Source: Tubiluchus corallicola
Taxonomy: Eukaryota; Priapulida; Priapulimorpha; Priapulimorphida; Tubiluchidae
DNA length: 42,057 bases
Direction: 5' to 3'
Assembly (NCBI GenBank): GCA_030141605.1
Contig: JAQGDQ010000755.1
Span: forward strand, 1-42,057
The notes beneath the pieces were generated by a model. That model was not told the origin of the DNA. It made no database searches and saw only the letters and a list, made by a program, of their open reading frames with translations. Of the stretch, positions 5,782 to 31,987 are shown one piece after another; position 1 is the stretch's first letter; every line of letters begins with the position of its first letter. The position numbers were made by a program, and so were the translations under genes.

Positions 5782-5929
5782 ATGGGTTGTTCATCGTCGT
5801 CGAGCTCTCGTTGTCGCTGTCCTAAGAAGAAGACCTGTAAACATTCCATGGACTTTGAAGCTTATCAGTATAAACCCGTAAAAGTGTCCAGCTCAGCGAA
5901 TAAGAAAATAAAGCTTCAGCGTGCCACAG
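5782..5929 (+). CDS. Exon 1: start codon, acylation motif and basic stretch (residues 1-49)
   Basis: The ATG at 5782 gives MGCSSSSSSRCRCPKKK. Gly2, Cys3 and Ser6 fit an N-myristoylation plus palmitoylation signal, and the following Arg/Lys cluster suits binding to acidic membrane lipids. An in-frame ATG at 5773 would place MTC in front and remove the N-terminal glycine. Neither ATG has a purine at -3, but 5782 has G at +4, so both might be used. The exon ends in phase 1 at CCACAG/gtagtg, and its last G joins AA of exon 2 to make Glu50. A second identical donor context lies 24 bases downstream at 5953. The phase match across a 1.9-kb intron is the main support for linking this exon to the rest. 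Confidence 0.7.
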
Positions 5930-8900
5930 GTAGTGGGCCAAACCAAACCACAGGTAGTGGGTTCTGCACAAAAAAACTGGTTTTAGTTGAATTTTTCAGG
6001 TCTTGAAATCGATTTTCGTGATGCCTTGTTTGCAGGAAAACCGGACGATTGTTTAGACTCAATCTCATTTTAATCTACAGTCCAAAATATACATTTTTTT
6101 GCCTAAAAACGTTGGTTTTTATATTTGAATAATTAGCTTAGAAAGTTAATTAACGGTAACCGAGCACAGCTGTTGCTTACGTCAGAAACTAACCACAGTT
6201 TGTGCAATGGCAGGCAGCTTGTCTTGCGCACGAAGCGCGTTTGCGCAAGTATTACTGCTTAAATGCGTGATGTCACGAAAATGGGCTCTACGTCATATGA
6301 CGTCAAAAACTAACACTGCAGTTCAGGATCATGATTATCACGGTACCGCCCTTTATTTGTTGGCCACGTGCACGTGACAAAAAGGCACCATTGCCAATCT
6401 TAGTAGATTCACTGAGCCACGCGTAGCTTTGAAAGTGTAACAAAATTTGAGTATCCGAGGTAATTAGTATTTAATCTAAGATTTGATGTAAAAAAAGGCT
6501 GTGTAATTTTAATATTTTAGAGCATTCTTTATTCTGAACTAATGTTTACAAATCGTCCGGTTTTGCTTTAACGAGGAAGCTTCTTGGTCTCTTTTGGGAA
6601 AAATTTCGTAACAAAATTCGGATTACATACATGAATGAAATTATTTTTGGTTTTTTCTTATTTGTTTTTGTTTCGTAAGAAGTATTGCTTTATATTATGA
6701 CACTATCATCATTTTGTTGGAAACAAGTGTTAGCTGCAAACGTTCAATGCATTAGGTGCAGGCAGGGAATATGTCTGTTAAAACTCATTACGCATTCGAC
6801 TGCATTGTAGTGCAATTACTTTCTTGCAGTGCTTTCTCAACTTGCTTGCGCTATGACTGTGTGAGCGTAGGTTTAAATGCCGCGCATGCGCAGAGAAAGT
6901 GTTTGCTGGCTCGCATATCGAACAATGCTTCTAAAACTACTTTTAAAACTCGCCCCCACACGGCCATCTCTAGCAAAACTCGTAATGTTTTTCTTTTTAT
7001 AATTACAATTTATAATTTATAATTTACTTCCTGTATGTCGCTTATTGTACCGAGTACGAGATTGTAGTATTATATGCCCCATTTAATTGTCAATCTACAA
7101 CACTAAAGTACTGAATTAGTCTATGCTGCCATCTACAGTCATTGTTTTACTCTAATTGTACAAAGTTTGTCAGAGATTGATGTTTGTTTCCAAATATTGT
7201 TTCCTTTTGCTTTTATAGATACTCATTAACCAGAGTAATTAGATTGTTAATTTCATGCTTTAATCTCTGGTTCTAGCTAATTCAAGTTAATATAGAGAAA
7301 CATTATAACGCAGCTTTCTGTAAACAAATCATCTTTATTCTTCTATCAAAGAAGCCAAGTAGACTTTTGATTTTGGTTTAACTAATAGTTTGTAGGGTAT
7401 AGGTGACCTTTCCATTTATGGTCTGTTTGCATGAATGCTTGATGTACCTTCCAATAGGAACTTGTATGTCTGGTCATGTGATTAGACCTTCATTCTCTCA
7501 GGCATGCAAGTTTCAGTTGATCTAGAGACAGCATTCAGAAAGGATGCAAATTTTCTACTGTTAAAGCAATGTTGAAGAATGCAAAATTTCTACAGGATCA
7601 TATTGCCAACTTTTATGACTGTTTGTTCAATTTTGTTACTGAAGCGAACATTGTCTACTTTTTAAAATAAAGTGATTACAATTTGCATGTATTGATGTTT
7701 GATTATTGATCTTGTTCTTCTATGATCTTTTTGTCATTTTCTCTTTCTTTCACTTTTCAATCATGGTATGTTACCGATTCCATTCCAGAACCGTTGGAGG
7801 ATGGCCCGCCCTACAAGGGAGACATTCTGCTCGGAGTCCAGCTCTCTAGCGAGGTGTTCTCGACCGACACACACCAGGTGGTCACTTTGGGAACGGTGAT
7901 AGTTGAATCGGAGGATGCGCCCGCGGCTCAGTTGCGACGTTGCTTGCGTGGTCAGATTCCCAGCTTGCCCCCACAGTTCTCCTTTCTGACCAAACAAGGG
8001 TACGGAAGTTTTGTAATTCTTAATGACACAAACAGTTGTTGGATAAATAGTCCACAATATTTCAAATCTTATAACATTTGTATTAACGAACTCAGTGATG
8101 CCACTGTGCTGCCATCTACAGGTCATATCATATGACGTGTATGAATTGTTCAATGACATTACACCTTGTGCTTTCTGTTACCAAATTGTATGTTCTTTTG
8201 TTACTATGTATGTTTCAAAATTAGAGACGTTTATTGAGATGTTTTTGTGTGAAATCCAGCCATGCCTTTCCAGTCTATGGAAAGTATTTATAAGTGGAGT
8301 CATTTTCTGTCTAAAATGATGAATGAATCAATGAATGATTCAATTTGATGAGAGAAGATCATCAAAGTTGAATTAGAAAATTTGGAAAAATATAGAAATG
8401 TTCTGTGGAAACAATAATAATAGAGAAAAGACCAAAATAATTATAACTTTTGAAGAGAGGGAGAGAGAGATGGTGGTTGAGGACAGACGAGAAGCAGAGA
8501 GAGAGAGAGAGAGAGAGAGAGAGAGGGAGGGAGGGAGGGAGAGAGAGAGAGAGAGAGAGAGAGAGAGAGAGAGAGAGAGAGAGAGAGAGAGAGAGAGAGA
8601 GAGAGAGAGACCCCGTTTAGGCATCAGTGGTACAACAAGCATCCTAGTTGCATTACTGCAAATACAGGAATAAATATGTGCTTATTTTTATTTTAGATGG
8701 CCGGTCAGCACAGATCAAGAGTCACACGTTCGCATTTCTTCACTTGTCGGATTGACGCGTACAATTCAGATCAGACGGAAATTTGGTAAGTGAAAAGAAA
8801 TTGCATCGCTGCTTTATCTTAGTCGAGCTGTTTCTATACAGATTTCTTTTTTGCACCCCGGTCTGAACTGTGGTGCCATTAAAAAGCTTATTAACAAGTA

Positions 8901-31840: not shown

Positions 31841-31845
31841 AATAC

Positions 31846-31987
31846 CTTCAATAAGTACAGCTATTTCGAACACCCTGGCCACTATGCTCTCCCTCTCTTC
31901 CAGACTCTCCCCGCGAAACACGGTATGACCAAACGGAACGATCTGAAATGTACCGTCAGCATCCTGCCTGGCTTTATTTCGGCAATC
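31846..31987 (-). CDS. SLOG-like domain, third exon (follows the minus-strand copy)
   Basis: Read on the minus strand, TTGTTCTGCAG opens the exon and TTGAAG/gtatta closes it. Its phase-0 frame is open and follows directly on Ser764: a short charged lead, then FQIVPFGHTVFRGESLEERE and VFEIAVLIEG. GxTxFxGxSxxER and the hydrophobic strand ending in E-G match the middle of LOG/SLOG folds, just before the GG-x-GT loop, which would be on the next exon. The exon sits in the spacer between the inverted arms, so as drawn it can only be spliced to the minus-strand gene copy. The following exon was not found down to 30187, where a retroelement lies. Confidence 0.8.

Follow-up and report, generated by a model that had tools for sequence, protein, structure and literature searches.

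A spliced gene that runs across an inverted duplication

The window analysed here comprises the first 42,057 bases of contig C2065 (101,600 bases) in the assembly of the priapulid Tubiluchus corallicola (343.5 Mb in 2344 contigs), and it contains a multi-exon gene that appears to join two TIR modules to a SLOG-like C-terminal domain. We regard the gene as real and probably functional, with an unusual architecture in which the first TIR domain (TIR1) is secure, the second (TIR2) likely and the SLOG assignment moderately likely. Our preferred reading, still a tentative one, is that the product may be a NADase of TIR type under the control of a pseudo-TIR/SLOG sensor.

The exons were rebuilt from splice sites and reading frames, independently of an earlier exon list, yielding 16 exons on the plus strand (5782-5929 to 29037-29196) and one on the minus strand (31987-31846). 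Joined, these 17 exons give an uninterrupted frame of 816 codons; each of the 16 introns is GT-AG and all phases agree, bearing out the spliced multi-exon gene of the original prediction, a note made from the letters of the window alone. The product had been given as 811 codons, and here the model holds but the length does not: residue numbers run 5 higher, and the W370/E374 pair and VVTGG motif (725-729) noted at the time recur as W375/E379 and 730-734. The translation start is uncertain and may lie at 5782 (MGCSSSSSSRCRC) or at an in-frame ATG 9 bases upstream (5773). We take MGCSSSSSSRCRC at the N-terminus to be a candidate N-myristoylation/palmitoylation site. No gene end was found after the final ...AVLIE(G), and past 41131 the contig holds nothing that matches the 816 residues; the end may lie inside a gap of 9503 Ns that starts at 42058 of the contig, directly after the window. 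The locus is probably a functional spliced animal gene. Its animal type, as predicted, agrees both with the splicing and with the presence in the same assembly of Toll receptors, seen as frames that combine a TIR domain with leucine-rich repeats and a membrane segment.

The minus-strand exon finds its place through a large inverted duplication (Table 1). Exon 17 comes next after the minus-strand copies of exons 13-16, with order, orientation and phase all correct, and because exons 13-16 are present on both strands they bridge the two halves of the gene. What had been described as an exon in the spacer is indeed an exon, but not an oddity, being the gene's own next exon reached via the minus-strand arm. 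Trans-splicing, or two separate genes, as the source of this exon is rejected, since exons 13-16 recur directly before it. Between the arms, 4 of the 474 sites in exons 13-16 differ, all synonymously, versus 123 of 4022 (near 3%) in introns outside tandem arrays (Fisher p = 0.003). Separately, 39792-42057 is a nearly exact direct copy of 21702-23967. Most likely, the duplication represents two haplotypes mixed by the assembler, with the minus arm in inverted order; a true inversion is a possible alternative. The arms also differ in an array of approximately 100-base units, which has about 10 copies at 27739-28739 and about 20 at 33911-35992.

Given the inverted duplication, the N gap and a last exon on the other strand, the model could be an artefact in which exons of different genes, or of a decayed copy, are joined in a misassembled contig. 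We consider this very improbable, as it has to contend with 16 of 16 junctions in phase at standard splice sites without a stop, with the bridge formed by exons 13-16, with arm differences in exons that are synonymous only, and with a second copy of exons 2-6 on another contig (C1749:151425-156680, outside the window). In that copy, four of the five matched stretches show 88-98% identity, and the exon 4 stretch, which extends past the exon, shows 70%; no match to exons 7-13 or to the SLOG exons was found there.

Table 1. Exons of the gene and parts of the duplication (window positions; residues in 816-codon numbering)
Feature	Position	Strand	Content
Exon 1	5782..5929	+	Residues 1-49; begins MGCSSSSSSRCRC
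Exon 2	7789..7999	+	Residues 50-119; most of repeat unit R1
Exon 3	8697..8785	+	Residues 120-149; R1 end
Exon 4	10145..10251	+	Residues 150-185; repeat unit R2 start
Exon 5	11358..11629	+	Residues 186-275; R2 end and linker
Exon 6	12872..13055	+	Residues 276-337; TIR1 start
Exon 7	14600..14725	+	Residues 338-379; TIR1, W375 and catalytic-type E379 (last codon)
Exon 8	16642..16777	+	Residues 380-424; TIR1 end
Exon 9	19898..20064	+	Residues 425-480; linker
Exon 10	20925..21050	+	Residues 481-522; TIR2 start
Exon 11	22214..22340	+	Residues 523-564; TIR2; second copy about 40304-40430
Exon 12	22899..23038	+	Residues 565-611; TIR2, Q611 last; second copy about 40989-41128
Exon 13	24753..24854	+	Residues 612-645; TIR2 end
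Exon 14	26667..26783	+	Residues 646-684; linker
Exon 15	27569..27663	+	Residues 685-715; SLOG-like first strand (VYIFGG)
Exon 16	29037..29196	+	Residues 716-769; SLOG-like VVTGGxxG motif
Exon 17	31846..31987	-	Residues 770-816; SLOG-like second half; stops just short of expected GGxGT
Duplication arm carrying exons 13-16	23843..30169	+	Matched pieces 91-98% identical to 39795-32375
Other arm	32375..39795	-	
Exon 16 second copy	33454..33613	-	2 synonymous differences
Exon 15 second copy	36068..36162	-	Identical
Exon 14 second copy	36774..36890	-	1 synonymous difference
Exon 13 second copy	38811..38912	-	1 synonymous difference

TIR1 and the N-terminal repeats

TIR1 (residues 308-414) matches the Pfam family TIR_2 with 72 bits (cut-off 28; E = 8e-20), and its membership of the TIR superfamily is secure. 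W375 and E379 align with the W and E of the WVHKE stretch of SARM1, i.e., with the WxxxE place of TIR NADases, and the enzyme-type TIR predicted earlier is upheld by both the profile score and this alignment. In a sequence search of the PDB, SARM1 TIRs come out as the closest solved structures (E = 1e-5); of the 21 sequences with E up to 10, 17 carry the name SARM1, and no Toll receptor is named among the other 4. Of the PADLOC models, ThsB scores best (E = 9e-13). TIR1 seems capable of NAD cleavage. A weak match to the TIR1 region (39%, E = 0.07) is present at C419:374253-374435, outside the window, and is perhaps a distant TIR paralogue.

Ahead of TIR1 lie two similar units, R1 (residues 50-149) and R2 (150-245), with a similarity that none of 1000 shuffles reached. 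For this repeat block, Pfam gave matches only below cut-off (Flg_bb_rod, E = 0.034; COQ9_N, E = 0.36), NCBIfam gave nothing and the PDB a single match (E = 1.1). The order of strands and helices suggests that the units may be ubiquitin-like.

A probable second TIR domain with an altered catalytic site

Searched alone, TIR2 (residues about 500-645) reaches 23.2 bits with TIR_2, below the cut-off of 28, with E = 1e-4 over two stretches. Three of four shuffled controls were run; none matched a TIR family, and two of the three matched unrelated families, at E = 0.01 and 0.016. PADLOC gave nothing for this part. TIR2 is a probable TIR domain, and the second TIR-like domain of the original prediction stands to that extent, on a match that stays under the Pfam cut-off. 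In the alignment, Q611 occupies the place of the catalytic Glu and the W is replaced by T. Direct similarity between TIR1 and TIR2 is low, with 29 of 1000 shuffles equally high. A phase-0 intron falls at one and the same alignment position in both TIRs, immediately behind E379 and Q611, respectively. Because of Q611 at the catalytic place and this common intron, we infer that TIR2 may be an old tandem duplicate of TIR1 that later lost the catalytic Glu.

A TIR2 without the catalytic Glu would also suit an adaptor or scaffold, whose TIRs would assemble with other TIR proteins and whose SLOG-like half would be structural or protein-binding, with no NAD chemistry. Many animal TIRs are adaptors, and Toll receptors are found in the same assembly. 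However, TIR1 retains W and E in a SARM1-type arrangement, and its PDB matches are, as listed above, predominantly SARM1 with none named as a Toll receptor. We regard an adaptor role as unlikely.

A SLOG-like C-terminal domain

On the C-terminal part, Pfam returned one family, SLOG cluster 4 (LDcluster4; E = 0.042), and none of five controls (the reversed sequence and four shuffles) matched SLOG. Home-made SLOG profiles were built from sequences fetched from prokaryote genomes and selected by ourselves. The first set held 25 of 30 loci, one of which was then dropped (wrong frame); the second took 34 of 52 by motif, with 25 left after thinning; and the third consisted of 8 LDcluster4-type sequences with 9 hand-picked others (17), or of the 8 alone. 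Per test, HMMER scored 679-818 of the 1000 shuffles, the remainder being without a score. Run over the whole 816 residues, three of these profiles gave a single match each, at 695-744, 697-744 and 709-738, and an earlier profile picked 697-735. With the two mixed profiles, the whole SLOG part scored above 1000 of 1000 shuffles. The same was the case for residues 685-769, a strand-helix-strand with GGxxG, with both profiles tested, a result obtained at the level of sequence only. In HH-align, none of 60 shuffles scored as high as the SLOG part with one profile; with a later profile, the score of the SLOG part was 23.0, compared to 18.1 for the repeat block and 14.6 and 15.6 for the TIRs; the shuffles control for composition, and rival folds are gauged by these HH-align scores of other protein parts alone. 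With the query included in the alignment, R801 lines up with an Arg that is invariant in the 17 SLOG proteins, and GGxGT would be due to begin just where exon 17 stops. A GGxGTxxE-type motif is expected in the next, missing exon. On this evidence, the C-terminal domain is likely to be of SLOG type.

Several points weigh against a SLOG domain and, with it, against the sensor of our preferred reading. The LDcluster4 match has 13.9 bits, below the Pfam cut-off of 26.3, and the whole-protein profile scores are low (4.7, 3.9 and -0.7 bits; E = 0.001, 0.002 and 0.06, for a single sequence). Under the 8-sequence LDcluster4-only profile, 4 of 1000 shuffles did as well as the whole SLOG part, as did 2 of 200 in HH-align with another profile. 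Exon 17 alone, including R801, is not significant: with two profiles, 116 and 21 of 1000 shuffles reached its score. In six frames, no GGxGTxxE-type motif was found in the window or in what is readable of the contig beyond it, although one split by an intron would escape this search. Finally, the missing C-terminus may carry a further domain that alters the reading.

These points could also mean that the C-terminal domain is another Rossmann-type domain and that the gene is a new two-TIR protein only. The sub-threshold Pfam match and the result for exon 17 both point that way, and since unrelated families came up at E = 0.01-0.016 for shuffled TIR2 controls, E = 0.042 alone says little. On the other hand, the sole Pfam family is the one predicted beforehand, the SLOG profiles match only here in the protein, no shuffle in 1000 equalled residues 685-769, and R801 and the exon end fall on the expected places with the query in the alignment. 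We judge a different Rossmann-type domain to be improbable. The SLOG domain of the original prediction is retained for its profile similarity at 685-769, while the Pfam score stays low and exon 17 alone is not significant; the Pfam check that had been proposed places TIR1 above its cut-off and, with these parts searched separately, both TIR2 and SLOG below theirs. SLOG similarity was found at the C-terminus, albeit below the Pfam cut-off, and the TIR and SLOG exons were not found to belong to separate genes.

Searches for relatives of the SLOG part returned little. With the single sequence, nothing was found in the PDB, NCBIfam, PHROGs or PADLOC, and 4 plasmid and 11 phage records matched solely at E = 0.8-9. 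Three of these 15 records were examined: one match (H4) lies opposite an annotated gene, one (H3) is without an annotated gene, and for the third (H1, an unannotated record) the opposite frame is presumably flavodoxin-like, as recognised by eye. No relative was found in viral contigs (with the 816 residues) or genome contigs (with the SLOG part), in scans that reach close relatives only. LSDAT_prok gave one match, below cut-off, in 200 prokaryote genomes. Within the assembly, all 5 matches of the SLOG part at E up to 1 lie on C2065, among the best candidates, which alone were scored.

Proposed working and comparison with known systems

In our preferred reading, an acylated N-terminus would tether the protein to membranes and TIR1 would cleave NAD once assembled. 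The pseudo-TIR/SLOG half would bind a nucleotide, NAD-derived or other, and would regulate TIR1 by either keeping it off or releasing it. The SARM1 TIR is restrained by a separate domain that senses NMN and NAD; the logic here could be the same, with SLOG replacing the metabolite sensor. Going by what is known of these families, the setting is likely immune or stress signalling. An altered TIR and a SLOG domain fit a regulatory or sensing role, because catalytically inactive members of the TIR/SLOG class are described, in section 3.3.3 of PMC9503650, as binding nucleotides as sensors.

SARM1, an animal NAD hydrolase and the nearest animal analogy for the proposed working, is also the closest likeness to TIR1 among solved structures, with a shared W-xxx-E place, and the gene model, too, represents an animal TIR without receptor parts. 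SARM1, however, has the order ARM-SAM-TIR, whereas here the Pfam scan shows no ARM or SAM and the altered TIR2 and SLOG-like domain stand in their place. Bacterial LOG/LDcluster4 proteins align in the first strand, the helix, the GGxxG motif and the Arg place, but identity is low, the insert before the Arg is longer and TIR domains are joined to the SLOG-like part. TRPM proteins share with the gene product an animal origin and a SLOG-class region, probable here and nucleotide-binding in TRPM (MHR1/2, LSDAT; described in PMC13143021), but here there is no channel segment, and the Pfam scans show no LSDAT family.

Thoeris, a prokaryotic anti-phage defence, resembles the gene in combining a TIR (TIR1 matches ThsB models) and a probable SLOG in one system, but here there is one animal protein with the order TIR-TIR-SLOG and no SIR2 found. 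In bacteria, TIR enzymes are known to pair with SLOG sensors in signalling, and both domain classes exist in animals (SARM1, TRPM). According to passages in PMC9503650 and PMC10022894, ThsA is a separate protein with SIR2 and SLOG, and its SLOG senses the ThsB product. Our Pfam scan of the 816 residues gave TIR families and one weak unrelated match, with no SIR2 or other Thoeris effector. The designation "Thoeris-like" in the original prediction is thus not supported as a statement of membership.

The same logic might still operate within one chain: TIR1 would make a cyclic ADP-ribose isomer bound by the SLOG of the same or a neighbouring copy, with feedback, or the switching on of a function in the missing C-terminus, as the outcome. 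A catalytic-type Glu in TIR1, the match to ThsB models and the sensing of the ThsB product by the ThsA SLOG favour such a scheme. However, no output is visible in the absence of an effector in the 816 residues, the ligand-binding residues can be judged only with the missing part, and a maker and sensor on one chain would be informative only if the product builds up. We consider it rather unlikely, and present it as a possible, testable idea and not as a finding. Its fullest form, in which a maker TIR and a reader SLOG are fused with a pseudo-TIR between them as self-contained, membrane-tethered Thoeris logic, is quite improbable; we know of none in any animal.

We know of no described animal protein that joins TIR and SLOG. 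None was found in the open literature searched, on the basis of titles, abstract beginnings and term counts, and there the phrase TIR-SLOG occurs in a single paper, which deals with NAD/ADP-ribose systems of viruses. The gene may nevertheless have been described, or carry an annotation elsewhere as an uncharacterised protein. The text of a 2026 TIR atlas (PMC13142454) does not contain the word "SLOG"; according to parts of it, many invertebrate TIR families are unstudied. Its uncharacterised eukaryotic TIR clades 10-13 are a candidate comparison. Among such little-studied invertebrate families, the gene offers a concrete, testable architecture. Should the preferred reading be true, the gene would open NAD-derived nucleotide signalling to tests in an animal protein, and its pseudo-TIR would illustrate a route, through duplication, by which such an enzyme gains a regulator.

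Other features of the window and contig

Long minisatellite arrays occupy about 16954-19600 and 1700-3960 of the window. The former has a 34-base unit, and its reading frames stay open for hundreds of codons; by our reading it is not a gene. A dispersed repeat of approximately 550 bases, with about 80-87% identity among copies, is present at 6034-6571, 24183-24731 and 38934-39460 of the window and at C2065:90521-91082, and adjoins exons 1 and 13. In the spacer between the duplication arms, the minus strand of 30187-31194 carries fragments that we take to resemble retrotransposon reverse transcriptase. Past the N gap, an open frame on the minus strand (L008; C2065:64048-65199) has a helix-turn-helix stretch that presumably resembles regulators of the LCOR/E93 type.

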